Positions 3,326 through 36,975 of a stretch of 37,240 nucleotides of DNA are shown piece after piece. Numbering within the stretch: the first letter of the stretch is position 1; every line of letters begins with the position of its first letter. Made by a program: the position numbers and the translations under genes. The DNA is from Bacteroidales bacterium OttesenSCG-928-M11 (GTDB lineage: Bacteria; Bacteroidota; Bacteroidia; Bacteroidales; Azobacteroidaceae). The notes under the pieces were generated by a model, which was not told where the DNA came from, made no database searches, and was given only the letters and a program-made list of their open reading frames with translations. The DNA lies in contig JAJDGO010000013.1 of NCBI GenBank assembly GCA_030265685.1, forward strand, positions 1-37,240. Reading direction: 5' to 3'.

Positions 3326-3385
3326 TTTTCTGTACAGAGAATATATATTTTCTGTACAGAAAACTTTCATTCTCTGTACAGAAAA
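3326..3385. repeat. Three-copy palindrome array, 22-bp period (CTGTACAG class)
   Basis: CTGTACAG cores start at 3330, 3352 and 3374, exactly 22 bp apart. The middle copy is a perfect 16-bp palindrome, TTTTCTGTACAGAAAA (3348-3363); the outer copies differ by one arm change each. The array fills the 119-bp gap between the converging genes 297-3275 and 3395-4450. No T-run follows the palindromes, so this does not look like a simple terminator. Another copy lies at 36915-36930. Confidence 0.85.
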
Positions 3386-3394
3386 TAATCCAAG

Positions 3395-4450
3395 TTATTT
3401 GTTTTTCTTTTTATAAAATACAATCACTCCGGCAAGAACAATAAATAATCCGGTTACGATAAAAGCCCAAATGTTTGCTTTTCTTGTTTGTGCTTGTATG
3501 GTATAACTATCAGAAACCATTCTATATGCTGTAAGACGCCATATTAATGTGTCGTTTTGGTTGATAGCATTAGTAGCTTTTAGCGTTTTTCCAGGCATTA
3601 ATAGTTTAAATGTAAAAGTCTCTTCCATGTATTTCATGAATTTTTGATTCCAAAAATCATCATCAAATTTCGTTATCGGACTATCTGCTGCTTCGAAAAA
3701 TGAGGTGAATTTGTTGCTAACTAATAACTCATCCATTTTTTTTCCTATATATGCATTATTTTCTGTGTTGATAAGGTCTGAGAACTTAATTTTATGGAAC
3801 AAAGAATCGCGCATCAAAACAAAATCTTCTTTAGAAACCGACAAATCAAATACCTCGTAATGATCGACAAGAATTTCGTACATCGCGATCCAATAGTTAT
3901 AGGCCAGCCATTGATTGTATTTGTCTGATAGCTGTTCGGTATATTCTTTCATTTCTATACCATTCATTCCTGACGTTAAGTTGGGTTGTCCGTTGAACCA
4001 AAAATCAATATCATCATCTTCCATAAATTCATTCAAAGGACTAAAGCTTGTTTCTATCTTGGGATAAGTTTCGCTGTAATCATAATAAGTATAAAACCAC
4101 CTGAAACTTTTATTAAATCGATATTCTATATTCAAATCGCTCCAACTGTGCGATGGTTTTAGCTTGAAAGTATTGGCTAATTCTTCTACTGATTGGTAAT
4201 TGCGGCGAACAAATGCTTGCGATTCGTCGAAAGGGTAGGAGATGTTCCAAGTAGAGTCGATAATTATTGGAAAAGGATTGTGATTTTTGTCCATATTACC
4301 GGATTTAAAAACCGAATCGACACTTGAATAAAACTCACGACAACAAGAACCATCCGGATTTATTACGGTCAGCATTTCATGATTGTTGCTACAAGAAGTA
4401 ACAAATAAGCTTATTATCAGTATTGCGGCAAATTTAATTATTGTTTTCAT
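3395..4450 (-). CDS. Lipoprotein with a C-terminal membrane segment, downstream of an ECF sigma factor
   Basis: 351 residues. The N-terminus is a lipoprotein signal, hydrophobic to residue 19 with a lipobox ending SLFVTSC, so C20 is the likely lipidated cysteine. Near the C-terminus IWAFIVTGLFIVLAGVIVFY is a probable transmembrane helix followed by a KKKNK tail. The middle is rich in aromatic and acidic residues and I recognise no domain in it. The ATG overlaps the preceding small membrane protein gene by 17 nt, so the two are probably translationally coupled, making it the third gene of the sigma-factor operon. A role in envelope stress sensing is suggested only by context. Having both a lipobox and a C-terminal helix implies attachment at both ends. 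Confidence 0.7.
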   Translation of the reverse strand: MKTIIKFAAILIISLFVTSCSNNHEMLTVINPDGSCCREFYSSVDSVFKSGNMDKNHNPFPIIIDSTWNISYPFDESQAFVRRNYQSVEELANTFKLKPSHSWSDLNIEYRFNKSFRWFYTYYDYSETYPKIETSFSPLNEFMEDDDIDFWFNGQPNLTSGMNGIEMKEYTEQLSDKYNQWLAYNYWIAMYEILVDHYEVFDLSVSKEDFVLMRDSLFHKIKFSDLINTENNAYIGKKMDELLVSNKFTSFFEAADSPITKFDDDFWNQKFMKYMEETFTFKLLMPGKTLKATNAINQNDTLIWRLTAYRMVSDSYTIQAQTRKANIWAFIVTGLFIVLAGVIVFYKKKNK

Positions 4451-4838
4451 GACGAAAATGATTTATAAGTTGTTTGATGTTGTTTTTTTCTTGATATTTT
4501 GTGGAAATATAGCAATGATATATTTGGAGGTTGTTTTGATTTTCTTTTGCGCACTCGTATTGGTTTGCGTTTTCTATTTTTGTAAACATCCCGGAAGGTA
4601 TATCTTCCGAGCGGGACAAAGCGATATATTCTTCGGCGAAGAATAGAGTTGGCAAACAAATAAGAGCTGCTGCCGCACATCGTTTTGTCCAGAGGTAAAG
4701 AAAGGATGTTTTTTTTCTTTCTATATGATGTATTTTTTGCATGATATGATCGATTTGCTCTTTGTTCTCGTTCATTACCGGCTGCTGTTTTTTTATTTTT
4801 TCGACTAAATGATCGAACTTTTCATCACTTATATTCAT
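4434..4838 (-). CDS. Small single-pass membrane protein, probable anti-sigma-like regulator
   Basis: 134 residues. About 45 charged residues with helical character come first, then one hydrophobic segment around residues 53-68 (CAAAALICLPTLFFAE), then about 65 residues presumably outside the inner membrane. This is the layout of anti-sigma factors. I do not see the HxxxCxxC zinc motif of ZAS-type anti-sigmas, so the assignment rests on position: the gene overlaps the 3' end of the ECF sigma gene by 14 nt and the following lipoprotein gene by 17 nt. Confidence 0.55.
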   Translation of the reverse strand: MNISDEKFDHLVEKIKKQQPVMNENKEQIDHIMQKIHHIERKKTSFLYLWTKRCAAAALICLPTLFFAEEYIALSRSEDIPSGMFTKIENANQYECAKENQNNLQIYHCYISTKYQEKNNIKQLINHFRHENNN

Positions 4839-5391
4839 TGCGATATATTTTTTCGATTTTATTTTGAATATTTTTTTTAGCTAAAAACAAATTACTTTTT
4901 ATTTTCTCGGACGACATTCCTGTTATTTGTTTGATTTCTTCTATCTCCAGCTCTTCTAAATAGCGCAATGTGAAAACTATCTTTTGTTTTGGAGTTAATT
5001 CTTGAGTAAAAGACGAAATCAAATCAAGCAGTTCTTGGTTGAGTATCTTCTCTTCCGTATCATCTTTAATGGCTATTGTTGTCAATATTGTTTCCGACAT
5101 GTCGTTTTTCTGGAAATACTTTTGTCGCTTTAATTTATCAAGACACAGGTTTGTTGCGATTGTATAGAGCCAAGTCGAAAACTTTTGTTTCGAGTTATAC
5201 TTATTCAGGTTAATCCAGACACGGATAAATGTTTCTTGCGTAATATCTTTTGCCTCGTCTTCGTTGCATAATAGTCGGAATGATATTGAATAAACTAAAC
5301 TTTGAAACTCTTCTACGATCAATCGAAAAGCTTTTTCGTCTTTTTGTCTACTTGCAGTTATGAGTTTATTTAAACTTGATTTGTCAATCAC
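4825..5391 (-). CDS. ECF-family RNA polymerase sigma factor
   Basis: 188 residues with the two conserved regions of sigma-70-family ECF factors. Region 2 spans about residues 20-90, including DEAKDITQETFIRVWINL and FSTWLYTIATNLCLDKLKR. Region 4 spans about 125-180, including LTPKQKIVFTLRYLEELEIEEIKQITG followed by a recognition-helix-like SSEKIKSNLFLAKK. It directs polymerase to a dedicated promoter set; its targets cannot be read here. It is first in a three-gene overlapping unit with the membrane protein and lipoprotein genes. A TACTTTTG box lies 27 bp before the ATG. Confidence 0.92.
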   Translation of the reverse strand: MIDKSSLNKLITASRQKDEKAFRLIVEEFQSLVYSISFRLLCNEDEAKDITQETFIRVWINLNKYNSKQKFSTWLYTIATNLCLDKLKRQKYFQKNDMSETILTTIAIKDDTEEKILNQELLDLISSFTQELTPKQKIVFTLRYLEELEIEEIKQITGMSSEKIKSNLFLAKKNIQNKIEKIYRNEYK

Positions 5392-5511: not shown

Positions 5512-5542
5512 TAAAAAAGAAAAGGTTGTCATCCCGACAACC
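5512..5542 (-). terminator. Intrinsic terminator of the candidate small RNA
   Basis: Read leftward: stem GGTTGTC, loop GGGAT, stem GACAACC (5524-5542), followed directly by TTTTCTTTTTT (5512-5523). A perfect stem with an immediate U-tract is a standard intrinsic terminator. In the other direction there is no T-run. Confidence 0.75.
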
Positions 5543-5584
5543 AATCTTCATTGTTAACCTTAAATCTAATACCATGAAAAACAC
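5512..5584 (-). ncRNA. Candidate small RNA of about 70 nt with its own promoter and terminator
   Basis: On the minus strand a -7-type TATCTTTG (complement of 5589-5596) is followed about 60 bp later by a perfect 7-bp GC-rich hairpin and a T-rich run, with no plausible protein gene between. The 275-bp gap between the sigma factor and rlmI genes is otherwise empty. The transcribed part includes a segment reading TTTTTCATGGTATTAGATTT and then AAGGTTAACAATGAAGATTG before the hairpin. It reminds me of short sequences in other Bacteroidales genomes, but I cannot verify that. Confidence 0.5.
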
Positions 5585-5666: not shown

Positions 5667-6863
5667 TTATTCTACTTCCAGGATCAAACCCTTTAGGTAT
5701 TCTCCTTCCGGATGGTATATATTTATAGGATGATCAGCCGGTTGAGACAACTGATGAAGTATTTTTACCTTTCTTCCCGATTGAGCTGCAGCAGAAAATA
5801 CGGCTAATCTAAAACTTTCTTTGCTTACTACTTGCGAACAAGAAAATGTAAATACAATTCCTCCTTTATTTATTCTCTCAAAAGCCGCAGCATTTAGTTT
5901 TTTATAACCTTGTAATGCGTTTTTTAAAGCACTGCGGTGCTTAGCAAAAGCGGGTGGATCGAGAATGATTAAGTCGTATATGCTCTCGCCCTTTTCTATT
6001 TTGTTTAAAAACTTAAATGCGTCTTCCGTAAAAGATTGATGACGATTGTCGTTATTTGGGAAATTTGCCTCAATGTTTTTATCTGTTAATGCAATTGCTT
6101 TTGCCGAACTATCAACAGAGTGTACCAGTTTGGCGCCTCCTCGCATAGCATAGCAAGAAAATCCTCCTGTATAACAGAACATATTTAACACCGATCGGCC
6201 ATTGGAGTATTTTTCCAGTAAACTGCGGTTATCTCTCTGGTCGATAAAAAAACCTGTTTTTTGTCCTTTAACCCAATCTACATGAAACTTAAAATCATTT
6301 TCGTAAGCATAATCAACTAAAGATTCACCTCCTACAAGATATTCGTTTTCTGCTCCTAAGTCTGCTTTGTAAGGAAGCGTTCCTTCTGATTTATAGTAAA
6401 TGTTTTCGATCGAATTGCCCATAACTTCCTTCAAAGCGTTGGCTATTTCAATTCTTTGAACATGCATTCCGGGAGAGTGTGCTTGCATAACGGCTGTGTT
6501 GCCGTATATATCGACAATTAATCCGGGCAAACTGTCTCCTTCTCCATGAATCAATCGATACGTGTTGTTTGGATTGTTGGCCAAACCGATGCTTTTTCTT
6601 AGTTGATAAGCCGCATTGATTCGGTTTTCCCAAAAAGAAGTGTCGATTGTTTTTTGATTAAAGCTAAGGACTCTTACTGCAATTGAACCTATCTGACAGT
6701 GTCCTACGGCAATGTAATTGTTGTTCGAGTCGTATATTTCAACTATTTCTCCCTCTTCTAAAGGTTCACTTGTGTGATGGATTGCTCCGGAAAATACCCA
6801 AGGATGGAAACGTTTTAGCGATTCTTCCTTCTTTTTGTTCAAGAATACTTTTTTGTATGGCAT
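5667..6863 (-). CDS. rlmI: Class I SAM-dependent rRNA methyltransferase, RlmI family
   Basis: 398 residues, normal for the family. An N-terminal PUA RNA-binding domain covers about residues 1-75 (HPWVFSGAI, then EIVEIYDSNN). The RlmI linker follows with KTGFFIDQRDNR at 202-213. The Rossmann methyltransferase has VLNMFCYTGGFS at 225-236 for SAM binding and the LDPPAFA signature at 301-307. E. coli RlmI makes 5-methylcytosine in 23S rRNA; the exact target base here is inferred by family. It is the last gene of a leftward unit DUF5063-exonuclease-rlmI and its ATG lies within the final 25 nt of the exonuclease gene. Confidence 0.9.
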   Translation of the reverse strand: MPYKKVFLNKKKEESLKRFHPWVFSGAIHHTSEPLEEGEIVEIYDSNNNYIAVGHCQIGSIAVRVLSFNQKTIDTSFWENRINAAYQLRKSIGLANNPNNTYRLIHGEGDSLPGLIVDIYGNTAVMQAHSPGMHVQRIEIANALKEVMGNSIENIYYKSEGTLPYKADLGAENEYLVGGESLVDYAYENDFKFHVDWVKGQKTGFFIDQRDNRSLLEKYSNGRSVLNMFCYTGGFSCYAMRGGAKLVHSVDSSAKAIALTDKNIEANFPNNDNRHQSFTEDAFKFLNKIEKGESIYDLIILDPPAFAKHRSALKNALQGYKKLNAAAFERINKGGIVFTFSCSQVVSKESFRLAVFSAAAQSGRKVKILHQLSQPADHPINIYHPEGEYLKGLILEVE

Positions 6864-11302: not shown

Positions 11303-12472
11303 TTATAGTTTCAATTTTTTTATAGTTGCCATAACACCATCCATTTGTGCTAAGGCAAACATACGACCAACAAACGAGTATCCGGGATTATAAGCTTTGT
11401 TTCCGTCGTCTAACATCAAACGACCGTGATCAACTCGCATGGGTAAATTGGGATTTTCTTTTTCGAATATTTGAACAAGTTCAATAAGATGCCCACGCCC
11501 CTCAAGGTGAGAGGCCTCGATAAAGTTTCCATTTTCGAAAACATTAGTACTTCTTAGATGAACAAATTTGGTTCGGGAGGCAAACTTACGAGCCAAAGCG
11601 GGCACATCGTTGTGTATTCCGGCACTTAAAGAGCCTGCGCAAAACGTTAATCCATTATGAGTGTTGTCAACTGATTTTAGAAACCATTCAATATCTTCTT
11701 CGTTTGTAACAATTCGTGGTAATCCTAATAATTGATAAGGTGGATCATCGGGATGAACACACATGTCTATTTCGTACTGGTCGCATATAGGCATGATCTT
11801 TTCAAGAAAGTATTTCATATTATCACGCAATGCCTTCCGATCAATACCATCATATAGGGCAAGTAGTTGTTTGAATAAGGCAACCGGTTGTTTATCTTCT
11901 TCCGTAATATTGCCATTTACAAAACCTTGAGTTTTAATAATGATATTTTCGATTAGTTGTTCTTTCTCCGACTCGCTGATTGTTTTGTCCAAGTCTTTTG
12001 TTTTGTCGATGATTTCTTGGGAATAATCTTTTTCTGCGCCTTCTCGTTCGAGAATATACATATCAAAGTATGCAAATTGTACTCGATCGAAGTAAAGAGA
12101 CGAACTTCCATCGCTCCAAATATGGTTTAAGTCTGTCCTCGCCCAGTCTAAAACGGGCATAAAGTTGTAACAAATGGTTTTGATTCCGGCTTTACCTAAA
12201 TTTTCTAAGCTGATAATGTAGTTATCTATCAGTAGATCTCTGTCGGCTCCGGCGTATTTAATCGATTCACTAACAGGAAGACTTTCGACAACTGACCAAC
12301 GCAATCCGGCCTCTTCTATGTAATTCTTCATGTCGAGAATAGCTTCTATCGGCCAAATTTCACCATTCGGTATATCATGTAATGCCGTAACAATGCCTTC
12401 TACTCCTATTTGTCGAAGCATCGGTAACGTTATTTTGTCTTTTTTGCCAAACCATCTCCAAGTCTTTTCCAT
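11303..12472 (-). CDS. uxuA: Mannonate dehydratase
   Basis: 389 residues, the standard UxuA length. Recognisable segments are MEKTWRWFGKKDKITL, GVEGIVTALHDIPNGEIWP, WSVVESLPVSESIK, ICYNFMPVLDWARTDL, CVHPDDPPYQLLGLPRI, FCAGSLSAG, FVHLRST and the C-terminal MRVDHGR. The enzyme dehydrates D-mannonate to 2-keto-3-deoxygluconate in hexuronate breakdown, using a divalent metal in a TIM barrel. No other uronate genes are nearby. I find no clean TAnnTTTG box upstream; the region between it and the divergent tricorn gene holds the AAGTT array. Confidence 0.95.
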   Translation of the reverse strand: MEKTWRWFGKKDKITLPMLRQIGVEGIVTALHDIPNGEIWPIEAILDMKNYIEEAGLRWSVVESLPVSESIKYAGADRDLLIDNYIISLENLGKAGIKTICYNFMPVLDWARTDLNHIWSDGSSSLYFDRVQFAYFDMYILEREGAEKDYSQEIIDKTKDLDKTISESEKEQLIENIIIKTQGFVNGNITEEDKQPVALFKQLLALYDGIDRKALRDNMKYFLEKIMPICDQYEIDMCVHPDDPPYQLLGLPRIVTNEEDIEWFLKSVDNTHNGLTFCAGSLSAGIHNDVPALARKFASRTKFVHLRSTNVFENGNFIEASHLEGRGHLIELVQIFEKENPNLPMRVDHGRLMLDDGNKAYNPGYSFVGRMFALAQMDGVMATIKKLKL

Positions 12473-12547: not shown

Positions 12548-12674
12548 AAGTAATACTCAAACATCGCTTAAGTTCTAGTATAACTTGGGTGAAGTTCTAG
12601 TATAACTTGGGTGAAGTTCTAGTAAAACTTAGGCAAAGTTCTAGTAAAACTTGAGTAAAGTTCTAGTAAAACTT
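12548..12674. repeat. Six-unit tandem array, exact 22-bp period (AAGTT class, forward)
   Basis: Units start at 12548 (degenerate), 12570, 12592, 12614, 12636 and 12658. Each is a 17-bp near-palindrome AAGTTCTAGTAWAACTT; the spacers between the five good units are GGGTG, GGGTG, AGGCA and GAGTA. The array occupies the centre of the 290-bp gap between divergent uxuA and the tricorn gene and ends 45 bp before the tricorn -7 box. Related arrays lie at 21961-22065 and 36937-36975. Confidence 0.92.
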
Positions 12675-12695
12675 TCATTTTCTCTTTGACTATCG

Positions 12696-12726
12696 TTTCG
12701 TAGCCCACGAATTTATTATATCTTTG
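12696..12726 (+). promoter_or_regulatory. Tricorn protease promoter
   Basis: TATCTTTG at 12719-12726 matches TAnnTTTG exactly; TTTC at 12696-12699 sits 19 bp upstream as a near-match to the -33 TTTG. The predicted start near 12731 gives a leader of about 32 nt. Confidence 0.6.
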
Positions 12727-12762
12727 AAGCACAAATCGATTAATCAATAAATATAATTACAT

Positions 12763-15700
12763 ATGAGAACCCTTAAATTGTTGTTCGTATTTCTGCTTTT
12801 GTCAAGCAGCTTGTTTGCCAATCCTCTTTGGATGAGGTATCCTTCCATATCTCCCGACGGGAAAATGATTGCTTTTAGTTATAAAGGTGATATTTATACC
12901 GTATCAAGTGGGGGAGGAGATGCCCGGCAAATTACAATGCACGAAGCTCATGATTATATGCCGGTGTGGAGTCCCGACTCAAAACAAATTGTTTTTGCAA
13001 GCAATCGCTTTGGAAATTTCGATTTATTTTTGATTTCGGCAGAAGGAGGAAATGTTAGCCGGATAACTACTTTCTCCGGAAACGAATATCCTTACTCTTT
13101 CTCTCCCGATGGAAAATCTATTCTTTATGGTGCTAATATTCAATTGCCGGCAGAGAGTGCTGCTTTCCCGTACAGACCTTTTAACGAGCTGTATAAAATA
13201 TCGATTCATGGCGGGCGTCCCGAACAACTTTTGGCAACTCATGCCGAAAACATCTCGATGTCTAAGGATGGAAATCGAATGATATACCAAAACAAAACCG
13301 GAATAGAAAACCAATGGCGCAAACATCATACTTCTTCTGTAACACGAGATATTATGATGTACGACTTTTCTCAAAACAAGTTTACTCATTTAATCAATAA
13401 TCCGGGCGAAGATACAAACCCGGTTTGGAGTCCGGATAATACAACTGTGTATTTTTTGAGCGAACGTTCGGGATCGTTTAACGTATATTCTTTCCCAATT
13501 GAAAATCCTTTGGAGGTAAAACAAGAAACTAATTTCAAAACTCATCCTATTCGTTTCTTATCTATAGCACAAACCGGAACGCTTTGCTTTGGATACGACG
13601 GCGAGATATACGTAAAAGGTAATACATCTAAACCTAATAAAGTGAAAATAAATATTGCCGAAGAAAACAAAAAGAACGACTCTTCTCCAATAAGAGGAGG
13701 TGGAGCGTCGGCAGTTTCCGCAGATGGAAAACAAGTTGCTTCGGTTGTTCGGGGAGAAATATTTGTATCTTCGACAGAATATAAGTACACAAAACGAATT
13801 ACTAACTCGGCCGAACAAGATAATTCTCCAAACTTTTCGCCCGATGGTAAAACATTGATCTATGCATCGGAAAAGTCGGGCATGTGGAACCTTTACAAAG
13901 CCACTATCGAAAGGGAAGAAGAAAACTATTTCTTTAATGCTACACTTGTAAAAGAAGAACTTCTTCTGAATGATGCCTCGAAAGAACGGATGTATCCTAA
14001 ATATTCGCCCGATGGTAAAGAGATTGCTTTCATCGAAGACCGTAAAAAATTGATGGTATACAATCTTGAAACCAAGAAAACTCGAATGATCACCGACGGA
14101 TCTTATCATCCGGGCACAACAGGGCGTATTTCTTATCAATGGTCGCCCGATAGCAAATGGTTTACCTTAACTTATACCGCAAACAAACACGATCCTTATA
14201 CCGATATAGGCTTGGTTAGCGCAGAAGGTGGCGAAATTACAAATCTTACCAATAGTGGTTACACAGACAGAAACCCAAAGTTTGTCTTAGAAGGCAACGC
14301 AATTTTATTTTCTTCCGAACGATATGGTATGCGTAACCATGCTTCTTGGGGATCTCTCGATGATGTTATGATCGTTTTCTTAAATCAAAAAGCATACGAC
14401 AAGTATCGTTTGAGCGAAGACGACTATAAGTTGCTTCAAGAAGAAGAGAAACTGAACAAAAAGAAAAACGACGACGCTAAAAAAGATAAAGAAGACGACA
14501 AGGATGATAAAGAAAAGAAAGACGAAAACAAAGACATTCTTGTTGAACTTAAAAATATTGAAGACCGGATTATTCGTATAACTCCACACTCTTCTAACTT
14601 AGGCGATGCCATGTTGAACAAAGACGGAGACAAGTTATACTATCTTGCCTCCTTTGAAAGTGGATATGATCTGTGGTCTATTAATACTCGTTCGCGCGAA
14701 ACTAAGTTAGAAATTAAAAATGCAGGAAATGGATCGCTTCAATTAGACAAAGAAGGTAAGACGTTATTTATGTTAGGTGGAAATCCTCAGAAAATAACTT
14801 TGGCAGGAAACAAAAAAGAATCGATAGCAGTATCCGCACAATTTGATATGGATTTAGCATCCGAACGAAAATATATGTTCAATCATGTCTGGACAGAAGA
14901 ACAAAAACGATTTTATGTAAAATCAATGCATGGGGTTGATTGGGATTTGATGAAGAAAACATATGAGAAATTTTTGCCATACATTAATAATAATTTCGAC
15001 TTAGCAGAAATGTTGAGCGAAATGTTGGGCGAACTGAATGTATCTCATACCGGAAGTTCGTTTTCGGGAGGGCGAACTAATTCGGACGAAACGGCTTCTT
15101 TGGGTATTCTCTTTTCCTGGAAATACGAAAAAGACGGTTTGTTGATCGATGAAATACTAGAAAAAGGACCGCTTGATAAAGATAACAGCAAGGCAAAGAA
15201 AGGAATAATCATCGAAAAGATCAACGGAGAAAAAATAGAATTAGGAAAAGATTTCTTCCCTTTCCTTAATAAAGTGGCAGGAAAAAACACATTGCTTTCT
15301 TTTTTCGACCCCGAAACGGGCGAGAGATGGGAAGAAGTAATCAAACCAATTACTTATGGCGCACAAAATAGTTTGCTTTATAATCGCTGGATCAAACAAC
15401 GTGAAGCAGAAGTTGAACGAGTTTCGAAAGGTCGTTTGGGTTACGTGCATATTCAAAGCATGAACGACCCAAGCTTTCGCACGGTCTATTCCGATATACT
15501 TGGGAAATACAACGATAAAGAAGGGATAGTTATCGACACTCGTTTTAATGGTGGAGGCCGATTACACGAAGACATTGAAACACTATTTAGCGGAAAAAAA
15601 TATTTCACACAAGTAGTCCGTGATGTAGAAGCTTGCGATATGCCAAGTCGCCGTTGGAATAAAGCATCTATTATGATTATTGGGGAAGCAAATTACTCCA

Positions 15701-15981
15701 ATGCACATGGAACTCCTTGGGTTTATAAACATAACGGAATAGGAAAACTTGTAGGAATGCCTGTTCCCGGTACAATGACTAGTGTAAATTGGGAAACATT
15801 ACAAGACCCAACCATGCTTTTTGGTATTCCGGTTACCGGTTATAAACTATCAGATGGGTCATATTTAGAGAATAAACAGTTAGAACCAGACTATAAAATT
15901 GCCAACGATCCGCAGATTCTTACAAAAGGAAGGGATCAGCAGATCGAAAAAGCAGTAGAACTCTTGTTGAATGATCTATAA
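12763..15981 (+). CDS. Tricorn-type protease, exported
   Basis: 1072 residues with signal peptide MRTLKLLFVFLLLSSSLFA, so it probably acts in the periplasm. Residues about 25-670 are TolB/WD40-like beta-propeller repeats (recurrent xxSPDGK and SPDSK turns), the gating propellers of tricorn. A lysine/aspartate-rich stretch at about 560-590 interrupts the second propeller. The C-terminal half has the tricorn core with S761-H762 in NVSHTG, a PDZ-like domain about 780-855, TRFNGGGRLHEDI and the nucleophile-region GEANYSNAHG with S979, matching the Ser-His and Ser positions of archaeal tricorn. The family cuts oligopeptides into small fragments. It is monocistronic with its own promoter. Confidence 0.9.
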   Translation: MRTLKLLFVFLLLSSSLFANPLWMRYPSISPDGKMIAFSYKGDIYTVSSGGGDARQITMHEAHDYMPVWSPDSKQIVFASNRFGNFDLFLISAEGGNVSRITTFSGNEYPYSFSPDGKSILYGANIQLPAESAAFPYRPFNELYKISIHGGRPEQLLATHAENISMSKDGNRMIYQNKTGIENQWRKHHTSSVTRDIMMYDFSQNKFTHLINNPGEDTNPVWSPDNTTVYFLSERSGSFNVYSFPIENPLEVKQETNFKTHPIRFLSIAQTGTLCFGYDGEIYVKGNTSKPNKVKINIAEENKKNDSSPIRGGGASAVSADGKQVASVVRGEIFVSSTEYKYTKRITNSAEQDNSPNFSPDGKTLIYASEKSGMWNLYKATIEREEENYFFNATLVKEELLLNDASKERMYPKYSPDGKEIAFIEDRKKLMVYNLETKKTRMITDGSYHPGTTGRISYQWSPDSKWFTLTYTANKHDPYTDIGLVSAEGGEITNLTNSGYTDRNPKFVLEGNAILFSSERYGMRNHASWGSLDDVMIVFLNQKAYDKYRLSEDDYKLLQEEEKLNKKKNDDAKKDKEDDKDDKEKKDENKDILVELKNIEDRIIRITPHSSNLGDAMLNKDGDKLYYLASFESGYDLWSINTRSRETKLEIKNAGNGSLQLDKEGKTLFMLGGNPQKITLAGNKKESIAVSAQFDMDLASERKYMFNHVWTEEQKRFYVKSMHGVDWDLMKKTYEKFLPYINNNFDLAEMLSEMLGELNVSHTGSSFSGGRTNSDETASLGILFSWKYEKDGLLIDEILEKGPLDKDNSKAKKGIIIEKINGEKIELGKDFFPFLNKVAGKNTLLSFFDPETGERWEEVIKPITYGAQNSLLYNRWIKQREAEVERVSKGRLGYVHIQSMNDPSFRTVYSDILGKYNDKEGIVIDTRFNGGGRLHEDIETLFSGKKYFTQVVRDVEACDMPSRRWNKASIMIIGEANYSNAHGTPWVYKHNGIGKLVGMPVPGTMTSVNWETLQDPTMLFGIPVTGYKLSDGSYLENKQLEPDYKIANDPQILTKGRDQQIEKAVELLLNDL

Positions 15982-16083
15982 TCTTTTTCATCTTGAACAA
16001 AATCATATCATTCTTGTTATATTACCGAACGCAACTAAAAGCATAAGTAAAAACAAATAAACACAATTAAACAAATAAAGAAG

Positions 16084-16488
16084 ATGAAAAAAATGATGAG
16101 TCTCCTGTTAGTTGCAGGAATGTTATTCGCAATGAGTGCATGTAGTAAGGAAACTAAAAATGATCCTCGTCCGGATTTGCAAGATGCTAAAGAGTCTGTG
16201 GAAAAAGCAGCCGACAAAGCAGTCGAAAATGTAAAAGAATCATTAGACGAAACAAAAGAAACAACACAAATAGTTACTGAAACTGCAACCGAAAACGTAA
16301 AGGAAGCTTGGGAAGAAACAAAACAAGCGGCCCAAGAAGACGTTAAACAAATCAAAGAAGATGCTAAAGAATTGGGAGATGCAATCTCAAACAAAGCAAA
16401 TGAAGTTGGAAACGATATAAAAGAATCGTTAGATAAAACAAAAAAAGACATAAACAAAGAAGTAGATAAACTACAAGGACAAAAATAA
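16084..16488 (+). CDS. Small charged helical lipoprotein
   Basis: 134 residues. The signal peptide ends in a lipobox AMSAC, so C20 should be lipidated. The rest is one long amphipathic helix built of repeats of Glu, Lys, Ala, Thr and Asp such as ESVEKAADKAVENVKESLDE and TENVKEAWEETKQAAQEDV, similar in style to LEA-like or apolipoprotein-like proteins. No enzyme motif is present. An envelope stress or membrane-shielding role is a guess. It lies 102 bp after the tricorn gene and is closed by a strong terminator. Confidence 0.75.
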   Translation: MKKMMSLLLVAGMLFAMSACSKETKNDPRPDLQDAKESVEKAADKAVENVKESLDETKETTQIVTETATENVKEAWEETKQAAQEDVKQIKEDAKELGDAISNKANEVGNDIKESLDKTKKDINKEVDKLQGQK

Positions 16489-16518
16489 AAGAAAATAAAG
16501 AATTTAAGAAAAGAAGGG

Positions 16519-16554
16519 AGATGGACTGCTCGTGAGAGTAGTCCATCTCTTTTT
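16519..16554 (+). terminator. Intrinsic terminator after the helical lipoprotein gene
   Basis: Stem arms AGATGGACT (16519-16527) and AGTCCATCT (16540-16548) enclose a partly paired 12-nt loop and are followed by CTTTTT. Confidence 0.85.
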
Positions 16555-16601
16555 AGGTATAACATTGAATCAATAAACAGGAATATCAATTATCCGCCTT
16601 T

Positions 16602-16630
16602 TTTGATTTGAAAAAATAAACTTACCTTTG
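16602..16630 (+). promoter_or_regulatory. Promoter of the PQQ-propeller gene
   Basis: TACCTTTG at 16623-16630 matches the -7 consensus; TTTG at 16602-16605 lies 17 bp upstream, slightly closer than usual. The ATG is 32 bp beyond the box. Confidence 0.55.
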
Positions 16631-16662
16631 TCGAAACTATAAATCCTTAAAATCATAAACTT

Positions 16663-18216
16663 ATGAGATTAATATTGATTACGCTTTCTCTTTTATTTAC
16701 AATTACTGCTTCTGCAAAAAAGAAAGAAGACTTAGTCCTTAAAAACGAACGTGTTATTGGAAAAACTGTTGACGGAACTCACATACTTGGTACGGAATAT
16801 ATTTTTCCCGAACGTGTTCATGAAGCTTTTCTTTATAAAGATGGAGGACTTTTAACTATTCAATCGCGCAACTTAAGGCAAAACGGAGTGGATTTAAGCA
16901 ATGGCGGCAAAATTTTCCAGTATGATATAAATAATGATACACTACTTTGGTCTAAAAAAATATCGTATTCGAAAGAAAGTATTTTGCAATTCGATAATAC
17001 ATTAATCTTTAACTATGAAAGAAAAGTACAACGACTGGATGCCTATACTGGTAAAAAGATGTGGGAACTTAGGAGTAACATCAATTATATCGACCCTCAT
17101 TATAATATAGGAATAGGATATAATTTGGAAAAACATGAGAAATACAACGAACTTCAAGGCGCCGATTTGAATCGAGGTAAATTAAGATGGACAAGGAGTT
17201 TGAATATCAACTATGGTTGGTCTGATACATTTTACATGAATGACTCTGTTTTGGTCGTCGTCTCAGATGGTTTGCATACAATAAACTTACGAAATGGAGA
17301 AGGTTGGGATTATAAAGTAAAAACCGGAGAAAGAAGTTACAAAAGATCTACTGCAATTAATGCAGCAGGAATTGCAACTGGTTTGTTGTTTGGCGTGTTT
17401 TTTTATTCAACAGGATATGATGTGATAAGTGATTTATCATCAAATGTCCTATTAGATGATAAATTTATTTATTTTGCTTCGAAAGAACAGATCGTTAGAT
17501 TAGAGAAAAGCACCGGAGATATAGACTGGAGAAAACCATTACCCAATAAAGATACCAGCAAATCTTTTATTTTTATGAATGATAGTACGGTTTTTTTGAT
17601 AAACGGAGGCTGGACTTATGTGGATGGAGTTCGTAAAGATATGGGAGTTCCCTTTATTACTGCCTATGATAAAAACTCAGGTTTCCAAAAATTCCTTGTT
17701 ACTTTGGACAAAAAGGAAGATCCTATTTTTGATTATGAGCGATTAGGCGATAATATTTATCTTCTTTTCAAAAATAGAATGAGGAAATATTCTGCAAAAA
17801 CAGGCGAATTGTTGCTCGATAAATTTTGTTCTGAGGAACAGTTTGGCGAAATAACCCACTTTGTTGATGATAAAGTTTTCATAGCTGGTCAAGATGAATT
17901 GATGTATCGTTTGATTGATTCGGATTTAAATAAAGTATTTGTGCACACAAAAGACGGTCATGTTTTAGCTATTGACGAAGACTTGAACGTTTCGGAAATA
18001 ATCAATTCCTCCGAACTAAATGTAAATAAGCTATCTTCTGATGATTTTCTTTTCCTTTCCAGGAATCATTATACGGAAATATACAACCACGATGGAGAAA
18101 AAATAGCCGTATTGGACATTCCTTCCGATTCTTTCTTAATAGATGGTGTATTATATGCAAAAAAAGATAATAGCTTTTTTGCAATCGATTTGGATCAACT
18201 GAAAGAAAAGCAATAA
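16663..18216 (+). CDS. Exported PQQ-like beta-propeller repeat protein
   Basis: 517 residues with signal peptide MRLILITLSLLFTITASA. Repeats of the PQQ/quinoprotein type are visible: GGKIFQYDINNDTLLWSKKI, LDAYTGKKMWEL, QIVRLEKSTGDIDWRKPL, RKYSAKTGELLLD and GHVLAIDEDLN. A hydrophobic stretch around residues 230-250 (AINAAGIATGLLFGVFFYST) breaks the propeller and could be a membrane insertion or buried strand. Catalytic quinoprotein residues are not evident, so a structural or binding role is more likely than dehydrogenase activity. Single gene with own promoter and terminator. Confidence 0.75.
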   Translation: MRLILITLSLLFTITASAKKKEDLVLKNERVIGKTVDGTHILGTEYIFPERVHEAFLYKDGGLLTIQSRNLRQNGVDLSNGGKIFQYDINNDTLLWSKKISYSKESILQFDNTLIFNYERKVQRLDAYTGKKMWELRSNINYIDPHYNIGIGYNLEKHEKYNELQGADLNRGKLRWTRSLNINYGWSDTFYMNDSVLVVVSDGLHTINLRNGEGWDYKVKTGERSYKRSTAINAAGIATGLLFGVFFYSTGYDVISDLSSNVLLDDKFIYFASKEQIVRLEKSTGDIDWRKPLPNKDTSKSFIFMNDSTVFLINGGWTYVDGVRKDMGVPFITAYDKNSGFQKFLVTLDKKEDPIFDYERLGDNIYLLFKNRMRKYSAKTGELLLDKFCSEEQFGEITHFVDDKVFIAGQDELMYRLIDSDLNKVFVHTKDGHVLAIDEDLNVSEIINSSELNVNKLSSDDFLFLSRNHYTEIYNHDGEKIAVLDIPSDSFLIDGVLYAKKDNSFFAIDLDQLKEKQ

Positions 18217-18245
18217 AAGTCGTTATACTTACTTAATAATTCGAG

Positions 18246-18273
18246 CAGCCTCTTATTCCAAAGAGGCTGTTTT
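18246..18273 (+). terminator. Intrinsic terminator after the PQQ-propeller gene
   Basis: Stem CAGCCTCTT (18246-18254), 6-nt loop, stem AAGAGGCTG (18261-18269), then TTTT. It overlaps the stop codon of the converging MATE gene; on that strand no U-tract follows. Confidence 0.8.
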
Positions 18274-19623
18274 CTTGTCTCGAATGCGGAAGTATAAGAA
18301 ATAGATAATAATAAAAACCATAGTTAATATCTCGGAGATAGGCAGGGCTAACCAAATACCCGGCTCGTTTAATAACTTTGGAGTTAAAAGGAAACAAGGT
18401 ATTAGGAAAATAAATCCCCGCAAAAGGGCAAATCCGGTAGCCGGTTTTATCTTTTCCATACTTTGATAGTAGCCGATGATACATAAATTCATAATAAAGA
18501 AAATGAAACCAATAGCAAAATACGGAAAACCATTGATTGCTATCAGAGCTGCCGAATTATTTGTATCAAGAAATAAACTAACTAAGAATTTAGGGAAAAA
18601 CAGAAAAACAACAGTTACAATAACTCCACAAATTATTGCGGTATAAAGAGATATTTTAATAGTAGAAGCAACCCGATGAGGCTTCTTTGCTCCGAAATTA
18701 TAACTAATAATTGGCTGAGCCGATTGGGCAATCGAATTACCAATCATAAAAACAAAGGGCAAGTAATAGCATGCAATGCCAAAAGCACCCACTCCGTCGT
18801 CTCCTAAATAGTGCATAAATACCAAGTTTCCCATAAACATGAGCATAGCAAGCGTAGCTTCTCCTAAAAAAGAAGAAGAACCTATACGACATTGATAATA
18901 AATATTCCGCAAGGATAACAATAAACTCTTTCTACTTATTTTAATCGGATGCGGACGCAGACTATTAGCGAAGAACAAAAGATAAATAATTGCGATAAGT
19001 CCTCCTGTAACAATACTGATTGATGTTGCAAAAGCGGCTCCCATTACACCCCAACCTAATGGAAAAATAAATAGCCAATCGAGAACAACATTTACTACTG
19101 CCGAAATAAGACTGCAATACATCGCCAGTTTAGGAGCTCCGTCTAATCGGATAATAAACAAACTGACCGAAATCCACATCTGAAATGTCAAAGAAGGAAT
19201 AAACCAAAGCAAATAATCTTTTACCATCGGTAAGAGTTGTTCGGAAGAACCAAGCAAAAAAGCGGTTTGCTCGGGAAAAATCATAATGAAGGCGGTAAAA
19301 GTTACAGTAACAATCGTTACGAACAATAAGGCTTGTGTTACGTTAAGTCTTGCTATTTTATATTTTTTCTTTGAAAGGTGTATCGATGTTACAACCGAAC
19401 ATCCCGAACCTATCATAAGTCCAAGACCGGTAAAAAGCATTAACAAGGGGACACAAATATTAACAGCTGCAATTCCATCACTACCAACTCCATGACCTAC
19501 AAATATTCCATCGATAGCAGTTACTGCCGATATGCTAAGCATTCCCATTAAAGTGGGGAAAAACAATTTCCTAAATAGTTTAGAAACTTTTAATGTTTCG
19601 AAATCAATTGCATCACGTTCCAT
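18253..19623 (-). CDS. MATE-family multidrug efflux transporter
   Basis: 456 residues with 12 hydrophobic segments. The N-terminal part has the MATE pattern KLFFPTLMGMLSISAVTAID, FVGHGVGSDGIAAVNICVP and GSGCSVVTSIHLSKKK; the second half repeats the fold with GDDGVGAFGIACY, SIAQSAQPIISYNFGAKKPH and FFIMNLCIIGYYQSM. The family exports cationic drugs and metabolites using sodium or proton gradients across the inner membrane. It resembles the MepA/DinF side of the family. It has its own promoter and a leader of about 135 nt with a terminator hairpin and short ORF, suggesting regulation by attenuation. Confidence 0.92.
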   Translation of the reverse strand: MERDAIDFETLKVSKLFRKLFFPTLMGMLSISAVTAIDGIFVGHGVGSDGIAAVNICVPLLMLFTGLGLMIGSGCSVVTSIHLSKKKYKIARLNVTQALLFVTIVTVTFTAFIMIFPEQTAFLLGSSEQLLPMVKDYLLWFIPSLTFQMWISVSLFIIRLDGAPKLAMYCSLISAVVNVVLDWLFIFPLGWGVMGAAFATSISIVTGGLIAIIYLLFFANSLRPHPIKISRKSLLLSLRNIYYQCRIGSSSFLGEATLAMLMFMGNLVFMHYLGDDGVGAFGIACYYLPFVFMIGNSIAQSAQPIISYNFGAKKPHRVASTIKISLYTAIICGVIVTVVFLFFPKFLVSLFLDTNNSAALIAINGFPYFAIGFIFFIMNLCIIGYYQSMEKIKPATGFALLRGFIFLIPCFLLTPKLLNEPGIWLALPISEILTMVFIIIYFLYFRIRDKKTASLE

Positions 19624-19656
19624 CTTTCGTTTATAATTAAAGGTTTTAAATACTAT

Positions 19657-19760
19657 AAAAAAAAAGACGAATAAGTTGATTGGTTTTACCCAGTCATCTT
19701 ATCCGGCATCTTTATTTGCCCTCCGATGAGGATTACAAAACGATCTTTTTGCAGAATCGA
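19657..19760 (-). promoter_or_regulatory. MATE leader with terminator hairpin overlapping a short ORF (candidate attenuator)
   Basis: From the predicted start near 19760 the leader can form a long hairpin, arms CGGATAAGATGACTGG (complement of 19690-19705) and CCAATCAACTTATTCG (complement of 19668-19683), with 13 of 16 positions pairing, then TC and nine Ts (19657-19665). That is an intrinsic terminator about 35 bp before the MATE start codon. A competing upstream hairpin pairs ATCC-T-CATC (complement of 19725-19733) with GATG-CC-GGAT (complement of 19701-19710) and would remove the base of the terminator's 5' arm. I could not match it to a known riboswitch class. It could instead be an independent small RNA. 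Confidence 0.55.
19686..19709 (-). other. Candidate leader peptide MPDKMTG inside the MATE attenuator
   Basis: Seven codons plus TAA, starting at 19709. A GGAGGG (complement of 19719-19724) lies 9 nt upstream, a Shine-Dalgarno-like site of a kind rare in this phylum. The ORF covers the 5' arm of the terminator hairpin, so a ribosome on it would block the hairpin. The same frame is open further upstream without an ATG. Too short for certainty. Confidence 0.3.
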
Positions 19761-19763
19761 GTG

Positions 19764-19794
19764 CAAAGGTAGGACTTATATTTAGAGTTGCAAA
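19764..19794 (-). promoter_or_regulatory. MATE transporter promoter
   Basis: Minus strand: TTTG (complement of 19791-19794), 19-bp spacer, TACCTTTG (complement of 19764-19771). This is a perfect consensus Bacteroidota promoter. Confidence 0.75.
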
Positions 19795-19830
19795 AAAATA
19801 TTTGCAAAACAAATGGCTTTATAAACAATA

Positions 19831-19858
19831 ATTCCTGCATCTTTTGAAATGCAGGAAT
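19831..19858 (-). terminator. Terminator after tRNA-Ala
   Basis: Perfect 10-bp stem ATTCCTGCAT / ATGCAGGAAT with an 8-nt loop, beginning 10 bp past the tRNA 3' end, followed leftward by the moderately T-rich TATTGTTT. Confidence 0.65.
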
Positions 19859-19867
19859 AGTTATTTG

Positions 19868-19941
19868 TGGAGCATATCGGACTCGAACCGATCACCTTTA
19901 GACTGCCAGTCTAACGCTCTAGCCAGATGAGCTAATGCCCC
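19868..19941 (-). tRNA. tRNA-Ala, anticodon GGC
   Basis: A 74-nt cloverleaf reads leftward: acceptor GGGGCAT / ATGCTCC with discriminator A, D-stem GCTC/GAGC, anticodon stem TTAGA/TCTAA around loop CTGGCAG (anticodon GGC), and T-stem ATCGG/CCGAT around TTCGAGT. The third acceptor pair is G:U, the alanine identity element. CCA is not encoded. It stands alone, not in a cluster, with its own promoter and terminator. Confidence 0.96.
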
Positions 19942-20034
19942 GTAGTTTCTTGATCTCTTTGTTGATGCGGGTTTTGAAGTTATTTCTATTTGCGTAAACC
20001 TGATTCAAGTTGTAGCTTTATCGCACCAACGGCG

Positions 20035-20066
20035 CAAAGGTAATATATTTATTGTAAATATACAAA
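20035..20066 (-). promoter_or_regulatory. tRNA-Ala promoter
   Basis: Minus strand: TTTG (complement of 20063-20066), 20-bp spacer, TACCTTTG (complement of 20035-20042), about 90 bp before the mature tRNA 5' end. Confidence 0.7.
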
Positions 20067-20107
20067 GTCATAAAACCGCATTTGTGAAAAATCATTACCT
20101 TTGCCTT

Positions 20108-20668
20108 ATGATCAAAGAAAAGATAATATTAGGAGTTGATCCGGGAACTGCGGTAATGGGATACGGATTGTTGAAAATTACAAACAATCAGCCGGAATTG
20201 ATGGCAATGGGAATCTTGGAACTTAACAAATATGATGATCATTATCTTAAACTTCGTCGAATATTTGAACGTATTATTAGTTTGGTAGACGAGTTTCTTC
20301 CCGACGAATTAGCCATAGAATCTCCTTTTTTTGGAAAGAATGTACAAAGTATGCTAAAATTAGGACGAGCACAAGGAGTTGCAATGGCAGCCGCTTTGTC
20401 GCGAGATATTCCCATCTTCGAGTATGCTCCGTTAAAAATAAAAATGTCGATCACCGGAAATGGAAGAGCATCTAAGGAACAAGTAGCTAATATGTTGCAA
20501 CGATACCTTAAAATTCCGGACGAACTAATGCTTCCTCAGTTAGATGCTACTGATGGTTTGGCGGCGGCACTTTGTCATCATTTCCAGTCGGGGCGTCCGC
20601 AATCGGCAAATAAGTATAACAGCTGGAAAGATTACGTCAATAAAAACGAAAAACGAGTCAGGAAATAG
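20108..20668 (+). CDS. ruvC: Holliday junction resolvase RuvC
   Basis: 186 residues from the ATG at 20108 ([20 protein letters not shown]). The acidic active site is visible: D11 in GVDPGT, E71 in [10 protein letters not shown], and D146 and D149 in [14 protein letters not shown], matching D7, E66, D138 and D141 of E. coli RuvC. The nuclease cuts four-way junctions together with RuvAB in recombination. A GTG start 24 nt upstream (20084) would add eight residues; I prefer the ATG because family proteins begin close to the first strand and a TACCTTTG box (20096-20103) lies inside the extension. ruvA and ruvB are not nearby. Codons beyond 155 give a basic tail. Confidence 0.93.
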
Positions 20669-20713
20669 TATTCATCCTTAAAACCCTTTTCGTAACATTT
20701 AGTAGTTTAATAA

Positions 20714-20744
20714 TTTGATAGTTCAAAAAAAGGATGTAATTTTG
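20714..20744 (+). promoter_or_regulatory. Promoter of the T9SS cargo gene
   Basis: TTTG (20714-20717), 19-bp spacer, TAATTTTG (20737-20744): full consensus. The leader to the ATG at 20836 is about 88 nt, AT-rich, with no obvious structure. Confidence 0.7.
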
Positions 20745-20835
20745 AACTCAGAAAGAAATATAAGCATTAGAGAACACTTACAGAGAATATTTTGTTTAAA
20801 TCAATATTAGTATAAACCTATAAAAAATTAGCAAT

Positions 20836-21858
20836 ATGAAGAAAATATTTACTTTTCTATTAATGAGCTTGATTAGTTTTTCGGTAGCATACTCGCAAGT
20901 AACGTTAACGAAAGAATCTCATGGTTTTATTTCCGAACTTAATCACCAATCAATACATGTAGATTACGCAGATCCGGGTCAATCCGGTAGCAACCAAGTT
21001 TGGGACTTTAGCAATCTTGCTGTTTTAGAAGACGCAGAAGACGTATTATCTGAAATTGATCCGGTTGATTCGGACGGAATTATTAATGTAAACCGGAACG
21101 ATGATCTTATTTTTCATTACGTAATAAACGATCAGTCCAACTCTTATTTAGGCTATACCGGCGAAAAGACCAAAGTAAGCTACACGAAACCTATTGTTAA
21201 AACACAATATCCTCAGTCGTTTGGCACTTATTTCGAAGGACAATTCTCGGGGAAAGTAGAATATGCCGGAAGCAAGCACGTTGTTCCTTTAAAAGGTACC
21301 TATTCTACTCACGCCGATGCTAGTGGAACTTTGATTCTTCCTAAAGGAATTAAACTATCTGTATTGCGAGTTCATACAATAGAAAGAATAGAATACAGCA
21401 ATGTAACGCAAGTTACGGACAAGTATCTTTGGTATGCGCAAGAAATACGCTATCCTGTTTTGGTAACAACAGAAACTTATATGGAACAAAAGAATGGAAA
21501 TGCAACATGTGCTAGTACAAAGTCTTTCATGAATGCCAACTTGTTCCAAAACAAATACGACTCTCCAACTTCACTTGAAGCCATTGTTGATGATATTGCT
21601 TATACAATTTCTCCCAATCCATTTCAAGACATTGTAGAAGTATCTTATTCTCTTCCCGAAACAACAAAAGTAACCGTAGCCCTTTATAACTCGAAAGGAG
21701 CAAAACTAACCGAATTAGTTTCCGGAGAAATGCAATCGGGTCATGTATCATTTACTAAAAATGTAGCAACATATACCCAAACTCCCGATGTTTACATCTT
21801 AAAACTATCTTTCGGAAATAAATCTTATTCGGAGAAATTAGTTAAAACAAGCAAATAA
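20836..21858 (+). CDS. Secreted protein with type IX secretion C-terminal sorting domain
   Basis: 340 residues. Signal peptide MKKIFTFLLMSLISFSVAYS directs Sec export. Residues about 22-245 form a beta-rich body without an enzyme motif I recognise. The last 85 residues are a type A T9SS sorting domain: AYTISPNPFQDIVEVSYSLP, VTVALYNSKGAKL, QSGHVSFTKN, DVYILKLSFGNKSYSEKLVK. Such domains carry cargo through the outer membrane and are usually removed, with the cargo released or anchored to A-LPS. This implies a T9SS elsewhere in the genome. It has its own promoter and a very strong terminator. Confidence 0.88.
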   Translation: MKKIFTFLLMSLISFSVAYSQVTLTKESHGFISELNHQSIHVDYADPGQSGSNQVWDFSNLAVLEDAEDVLSEIDPVDSDGIINVNRNDDLIFHYVINDQSNSYLGYTGEKTKVSYTKPIVKTQYPQSFGTYFEGQFSGKVEYAGSKHVVPLKGTYSTHADASGTLILPKGIKLSVLRVHTIERIEYSNVTQVTDKYLWYAQEIRYPVLVTTETYMEQKNGNATCASTKSFMNANLFQNKYDSPTSLEAIVDDIAYTISPNPFQDIVEVSYSLPETTKVTVALYNSKGAKLTELVSGEMQSGHVSFTKNVATYTQTPDVYILKLSFGNKSYSEKLVKTSK

Positions 21859-21880
21859 TCAACTAACTAAGCTATACAAA

Positions 21881-21915
21881 GCGGAGGTGTTCGGGAAAGA
21901 ACACCTCCGCTTTTT
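21881..21915 (+). terminator. Strong intrinsic terminator after the T9SS cargo gene
   Basis: A perfect 12-bp stem, GCGGAGGTGTTC (21881-21892) and GAACACCTCCGC (21899-21910), with loop GGGAAA, then TTTTTG. This is the most stable hairpin in the window. Confidence 0.95.
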
Positions 21916-21960
21916 GTTTATAATACACAATAGACGCCTTACTTCTTGTCGTATTCGAAA

Positions 21961-22065
21961 AAAAGATACTATAACTTTCTCCAAGTTATACTAAAACTTT
22001 ACCCAAGTTTTACAACAACTTCGTCTAAGTTTTACTAAAACTTCGCCCAAGTTATAGTCAAACTT
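21961..22065. repeat. Five-unit tandem array, exact 22-bp period (AAGTT class, reverse orientation)
   Basis: Units start at 21961 (degenerate), 21983, 22005, 22027 and 22049. Each is 17 bp, for example AAGTTATACTAAAACTT and AAGTTTTACTAAAACTT; the spacers are TCTCC, TACCC, CGTCT and CGCCC. Read on the minus strand the spacers become GGAGA, GGGTA, AGACG and GGGCG and the cores become AAGTTTTAGTAWAACTT, so the array is an inverted relative of 12548-12674. The 397-bp gap (21859-22255) holds this array, the terminator at 21881 and a promoter box at 22219; I see no gene in it. Confidence 0.9.
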
Positions 22066-36802: not shown

Positions 36803-36914
36803 CGGTTCTTTTCTTGTCTTGATTTGATCGCTTCTTTGCCTATTGCGACAAGTCGAAAAGATTTATTTCTCGGGTAATCCTCCGAGTGATTCAACTTATA
36901 GTATCTTTTAAAAC

Positions 36915-36975
36915 TTTTCTGTACAGAAAATGTCCTAAGTTCTACTATAACTTTGGTCAAGTTATACTAATACTT
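36915..36975. repeat. Mixed array: one CTGTACAG palindrome plus two AAGTT units
   Basis: A perfect 16-bp palindrome TTTTCTGTACAGAAAA (36915-36930), identical to the middle copy at 3348-3363, is followed by AAGTTCTACTATAACTT (36937-36953) and AAGTTATACTAATACTT (36959-36975). The two AAGTT units are 22 bp apart, and the palindrome centre is 22.5 bp from the first unit's centre. This lies in the 342-bp gap between tcdA and the BlaI-type gene, which otherwise holds only the operator and promoter at its right end. Confidence 0.85.

Follow-up and report, generated by a model that had tools for sequence, protein, structure and literature searches.

Intergenic arrays of palindromic units at an exact 22-bp pitch in a Bacteroidales genome, possible docking sites at transcription-unit ends

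What keeps a short palindrome at one exact spacing in the intergenic DNA of a bacterium? The question is raised by a contig of Bacteroidales bacterium OttesenSCG-928-M11 (GCA_030265685.1, contig JAJDGO010000013.1, positions 1 to 37,240; this whole stretch is called the window below), in which near-palindromic units with AAGTT arms follow one another at 22 bp in two intergenic arrays. The original prediction, made from the letters of the window, had proposed either docking sites for a protein that binds cooperatively along DNA or a mobile short-repeat family. The arrays were followed through the host genome (G000; 1,479,014 bases in 83 contigs, 51.7% complete, the window being contig C5) and through its relatives. 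Overall, they form a lattice of exact pitch with nearly invariant arms, freely varying spacers and two different palindromes in register, for which docking sites are a plausible account.

An exact 22-bp lattice shared by two palindromes

Both arrays were confirmed at their predicted positions and at a pitch of exactly 22 bp. Array 1 (12548-12674, plus strand) had been credited with six units, of which five are canonical 17-bp units (starting at 12570, 12592, 12614, 12636 and 12658) and the first (12548-12564) is degenerate. Array 2 (21961-22065, plus strand) does hold five units at 22 bp, with the correction that the first (21961-21977) is a special, polar end unit, AAAAGATACTATAACTT. The unit consensus was corrected to AAGTT-N-TANTA-N-AACTT with a centre that is mostly G or C (A unit hereafter). 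Beyond the two loci noted originally, the window contains two more. An array at 3326-3385 (plus strand) is built from a different palindrome, TTTTCTGTACAGAAAA / CTGTACAG (B unit), with three TTTTCTGTACAGAAAA-like units at 3326, 3348 and 3370 and the same 22-bp pitch, while a mixed lattice at 36893-36975 combines a reverse end unit (36893-36909), a B unit reading TTTTCTGTACAGAAAA (36915-36930) and two A units (36937-36953 and 36959-36975) on one pitch. Counting both strands, the window has 16 matches to the pattern AAGTT-N7-AACTT-N5-AAGTT, and 100 shuffles gave none.

A scan of the genome for further arrays, which the original prediction had set as its check, returned many more with the identical exact pitch. 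The two-unit A pattern with at most one mismatch was found 133 times in the host genome and not at all in a reversed control, the two-unit B pattern 35 times, and the end unit, searched as AAAAGATAC-N3-AACTT, in 41 copies (control, 0). When intergenic tandem arrays with a period of 12-80 and at least 2.7 copies were sought (about 1.95 Mb of stretches overall), all 16 arrays in the host sample, 375,720 bases or a quarter of the genome, had a period of 22 bp. Of 48 distances between neighbouring A units, 46 were exactly 22 bp (the other two 30 and 88 bp), as were all 18 between neighbouring B units. The two palindromes share the lattice: 22 of the 44 distinct CTGTACAG units had an A unit or an end unit within 80 bp, and 19 of these 22 were in phase with it to within half a base.

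Variation was distributed unevenly along the unit. Among 149 lattice places with up to four arm mismatches, 25 were end units; the ten arm letters of the other 124 were perfect in 97, changed at one or two positions in 10 and at three or four in 17, the last group including plain flanking DNA. The 5-bp spacers came in 43 kinds among 74, with a purine at position 2 in 66 and a pyrimidine at position 4 in 67. Across the 107 non-end units that carry no more than two arm changes, one-sided changes to arm pairs numbered 12 and compensated ones 1, so that pairing is less likely to be the selected property; these small numbers lean towards the letters themselves being kept. The positions next to the arms, 6 and 12, formed a Watson-Crick pair in 5 of 95 units compared to 24.7 in permutations, a deficit behind which shared descent may stand because it was not significant on the 23 distinct core words alone (754 of 5000). 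Scoring of the whole-consensus palindrome against shuffles was weak for single arrays (below 0.05 in 9 of 16 arrays of the host and 0 of 12 of the congener G026) and was not used as evidence. The unit had also been read as directional and the two arrays as mutually inverted; this holds for that pair and is no general rule, as eleven spacer words and twelve core words were seen in both orientations, at times within one array. Part of the remaining two-orientation words is explained by whole arrays having inserted either way round.

Placement beside gene ends and the polar end unit

The placement of the arrays was analysed at loci anchored on the first 30 of the 41 end units, with gene and terminator calls made by custom simple scripts. 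These loci carried mostly five (13/30) or four (8/30) lattice units, and none of the 30 lay inside a predicted gene. Without L213, L216 and L231, which are second units of loci already counted, 27 distinct loci are left, 11 between converging genes, 11 between tandem genes and 5 between diverging genes, and all 11 tandem loci were nearer to the 3' end of the upstream gene. Convergent placement was more frequent than among background spacers (11/27 versus 15/113, p = 0.002), in a test that is conservative because 28 of the 113 background spacers themselves hold an element. A second, overlapping sample, two rows of which lacked a gene on one side, showed converging genes around 7 of the 18 A arrays with both neighbours, and its tandem A and B rows were nearer to a 3' end in 14 of 15 cases. 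One row of this sample, on contig C1 at position 29373, fell inside a gene; its two units had up to three arm mismatches, and it was set aside as a chance chain.

Within the window, array 1 is flanked by divergent genes, one UxuA-like (11303-12472, minus strand) and one for a tricorn-like protease (12763-15981, plus strand), and is outside the 27 loci because it has no end unit. The B array at 3326-3385 is flanked by converging genes (297-3275, plus strand, and 3395-4450, minus strand). Between array 2 and the 3' end of the gene upstream of it (21858), a hairpin with a T-run resembling an intrinsic terminator of that gene was predicted computationally at 21875-21919 (plus strand). The end unit has a structure of its own: the strand opposite AAAAGATAC reads half-unit, 5-base loop, half-unit and then TCTTTT, often with more T, and several of the polar ends fold as stems of 11 bp or longer.

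Arrays in relatives and known systems

The words of the host arrays are private. The two-unit A pattern with at most one mismatch had no match in 96 other genomes, 37 of them congeners, and its exact form occurred in 2 of 393 genomes of the order, namely the host (113 matches) and G287, where the single match belongs to a local array that has the 22-bp period but a different core and precedes an open reading frame (ORF). At locus L236 of G287, a 22-bp array with AAGTT/AACTT arms stands beside one of 11-bp units, each a single helical turn, upstream of an ORF (1468-1572 and 1611-1680). The B pattern was absent from the 392 other genomes of the order, and viral contigs gave no match to the two patterns tested. 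An array of another word was considered for reversed-control matches of the A pattern in G010, G013, G029, G030 and G032 and rejected, as by eye they looked mostly like one recurring protein-coding stretch; other reversed-control matches were single ones in G036 and G030 (search with a G026 word, TCTTAGTAGA) and in G330 (search with the B pattern).

Other words at a similar pitch were found in the congener G026 (99% complete), which has three families at 22-23 bp. Two were tested and both were private: TGAAAC-N5-GTTTCA with 6-bp spacers (23 bp; 112 two-unit matches) and TCTTAGTAGA (23 bp; 209 and 251 matches on the two strands) had no match in the genus outside G026 (37 genomes). The third is a CGTACG/AAATTT family at 22 bp. 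Spacing in G026 was 23 bp or a multiple of it, with some multiples short by one or two (44, 45, 68), so that the pitch slips in a few places. At locus L193 of this genome, two TCTTAGTAGA units read TCTACTAAGA, with the middle reversed in an array copy that otherwise closely matches its sisters, which suggests, as far as such a comparison goes, a local inversion at short inverted repeats. At L094 (17675-17850 and 17940-17998), a 22-bp array lies between the 3' end of a gene and a SAM-II riboswitch ahead of an apparent metK. Arrays of 23 bp were also present in G024, G062 and the named locus L069. In G062, 23-bp arrays of CTCACAAGYTTGTCA flank an apparent ATPase gene (L134, 8231-8298 and 9647-9736), one of them directly upstream and hence on the promoter side, unlike the 3'-end arrays of the host, and in G024 the GC-rich 23-bp arrays of L040 (131-338) include one with two alternating unit kinds in a 46-bp higher order at 98% match. 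In some relatives, words change between genomes while the pitch stays.

The tricorn-like protease beside array 1 was 76% identical to that of a metagenome-assembled genome (MAG) named Odoribacter sp. UBA944, 65-67% to those of three MAGs named Dysgonamonadaceae and 65% to one named Prevotellaceae. By eye, no such array is present in the spacer that precedes the tricorn gene at L075, L068 or L079, and these spacers may be non-orthologous, the tricorn gene being the sole match among nine window genes. An Rfam search at gathering score, covering the window and six other loci, gave no match lying on an array. Elsewhere in the window, RF04319 (BTncRNA_FopS, a paralogous small RNA of Bacteroidetes) matched 5512-5584 on the minus strand with 81 bits, in the spacer between ORFs 4825-5391 and 5667-6863.

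Tandem repeats of this length are already known. Porphyromonas gingivalis belongs to the same order, Bacteroidales, and the 22-bp repeats that the original prediction tentatively mentioned there have a counterpart in print. Passages of the paper concerned report tandem repeats of 22, 23 and 41 nt in strain W83 and describe BrickBuilt, a dispersed intergenic minisatellite or miniature inverted-repeat transposable element (MITE) with 23-nt tandem units, 1 to 22.8 repeats per locus, and leader and tail segments that show promoter activity in lacZ probes, 3 of 19 elements having neither leader nor tail (PMC4596501). A possible regulation by haem is proposed there for BrickBuilt, and the same passages give no role to the 22-nt repeats of W83 (PMC4596501). 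Compared by description only, BrickBuilt is the nearest described relative in kind, similar in order, intergenic position, dispersal and tandem units. However, the host unit is 22 bp rather than 23 nt, the host arrays mostly have four or five units and are palindromic with two unit kinds in one lattice, and by eye the flanks of the arrays and of the 30 end-anchored loci have no common segment beyond an A-run that could serve as leader or tail. Within open-licence papers, no literature on 22-23-bp palindromic arrays in Bacteroidetes was found beyond the P. gingivalis papers.

Other known systems agree with the arrays in part. Repetitive extragenic palindromic (REP) sequences and the bacterial interspersed mosaic elements (BIMEs) that they form are species-specific extragenic palindromes near gene 3' ends, associated with REP-associated tyrosine transposases (RAYTs), a REP being a hairpin with a tetranucleotide. 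The host arrays are likewise species-specific extragenic palindromes by gene 3' ends, but their exact lattice and AAGTT arms are unlike such a hairpin, and no Y1_Tnp domain was found in the half-complete host genome or in G026. As a working analogy, the phage lambda operators OR and OL are two clusters of three near-palindromes of 17 bp, set about two turns from one another and occupied cooperatively by dimers. They match the host units in size and spacing, but lie in promoters, whereas the host has dozens of arrays, mostly near gene ends. Regularly spaced sites are also used by the oligomerising protein BldC, which assembles head to tail on short direct repeats about one turn apart (PMC5859096), whereas the host sites are dyads two turns apart. 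Clustered regularly interspaced short palindromic repeat (CRISPR) arrays have repeats split by unique spacers of about 30 bp, unlike the 5-bp spacers here.

Weighing the readings

We favour, tentatively and with slightly less than even confidence, a lattice that is cooperatively filled by a putative dimeric protein at the ends of transcription units. Each array would be a non-coding strip, mostly of four or five near-palindromic 16-17-bp sites 22 bp apart and usually beside a gene 3' end, on which a dimeric DNA-binding protein would take each dyad and contact its neighbour on the same DNA face. Filling would be stable only for a run of sites, and the filled strip would mark or insulate the end of the transcription unit, as a roadblock or as a boundary in chromosome packing, with a sequence word private to the species and the two-turn pitch retained. 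Near-invariant arms, free spacers, an exact pitch and a word swapped without a change of pitch are what would be expected of a dimer contacting its neighbour on one face, and in this the cooperative docking of the original prediction fits the data, including two palindromes on one lattice; the protein, its cooperativity and its boundary role are what we infer from them. Several observations weigh against this reading. No binding protein was identified for the arrays. The polar end looks like a hairpin with a U-tract at many arrays, an RNA feature that would be superfluous for protein docking. Since divergent genes flank 5 of the 27 loci as well as array 1, placement at 3' ends is no rule; converging genes flank 2 of 10 B arrays of the overlapping sample, with no enrichment, and neutral insertions are also tolerated after gene ends. 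Units within an array resemble each other more than shuffled ones (observed values reached by 9 of 2000 shuffles for cores and by 1 for spacers), and the pitch could be inherited through local duplication. In other sampled stretches (1.4 Mb, drawn from another 14 congeners and from 52 more sources, almost all of them Bacteroidales), 6 of 20 intergenic arrays were at 22 or 23 bp and the rest were spread over 12-41, and the 22-23-bp pitch is therefore dominant in some genomes and not universal.

The polar end itself is the centre of an alternative explanation that we consider quite unlikely, in which each array is a terminator cassette: the hairpin of neighbouring half-unit, spacer loop and end half-unit, followed by UCUUUU, would stop transcripts of the facing gene, and the remaining units would supply hairpins protecting the RNA end. 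Judged from its letters, a terminator role of the polar end is possible. An A precedes AAAAGATAC at -1 in 20 and at -2 in 16 of 27 cases, the centres of end unit and neighbour are complementary in 12 of 17 cases compared to 16 of 78 internal neighbours (p = 1.3e-4), and genes that face the U-tract correctly end closer to the array than wrong-facing ones (median 39 versus 100 bp, p = 0.018). Similar to intrinsic terminators, many polar ends have the shape of a hairpin and U-tract, but the extra phased dyads and short-armed internal hairpins differ from them, tandem cases have no orientation bias (6 versus 5), and the exact 22-bp pitch would be superfluous. Moreover, a terminator of their own was detected for 5 of 17 right-facing and 7 of 16 wrong-facing genes (p = 0.48; at element-free gene ends, 8 of 65), and the avoidance of pairing at positions 6 and 12 described above, with its limit on distinct words, also speaks against a cassette.

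The mobile-repeat family of the original prediction would be an old, dispersed and non-autonomous element (of REP or MITE type, comparable to BrickBuilt) that landed by gene ends and is decaying, its lattice being a transposase binding site or a by-product of copying. We regard it as unlikely, yet it accounts for the fixed polar end in 41 copies, for the intergenic position of all 30 end-anchored loci and for a word absent from the 96 relatives searched and shared with a single one of the 392 other genomes of the order. In G026, identical ordered unit series recur at many loci, so that whole arrays were copied as blocks there. However, no pair among the 30 distinct A arrays of the host genome shares a core-spacer-core block (null mean 0.12), and decay would strike arms and spacers equally while the arms are nearly intact. 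The printed flanks of the 30 end-anchored loci showed by eye no target-site duplication, and no terminal inverted repeat or common flank was seen in the printed flanks. The REP-associated transposase domain Y1_Tnp has one match in G062, which also carries 23-bp arrays, but was not found in the host (52% complete), G026 (99%) or G024. Replication slippage, which would make the arrays neutral minisatellites of AT-rich intergenic DNA, could produce the excess similarity within arrays. It is disfavoured and appears very improbable against one palindromic word at dozens of loci, a unit number of mostly four or five, a lack of pitch drift despite diverged spacers, and host-sample arrays that are all at 22 bp instead of at varied pitch.

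Beyond tandem repeats of this size as such, the case shows a two-turn pitch kept by words with no relation to one another, both within one genome and across some relatives, and arms that are preserved while spacers are not. A protein that binds the arrays, if there is one, would be of one of two kinds: a boundary or nucleoid protein whose specificity changes fast, or the protein that recognises a new mobile repeat. A wider proposal, which we hold to be doubtful, is that Bacteroidales carry a general, overlooked class of dyad lattices with a fixed 22-23-bp pitch, whose words are replaced wholesale between species and which mark the ends of transcription units or chromosome domains through a filament- or cluster-forming DNA-binding protein that evolves rapidly together with its sites.

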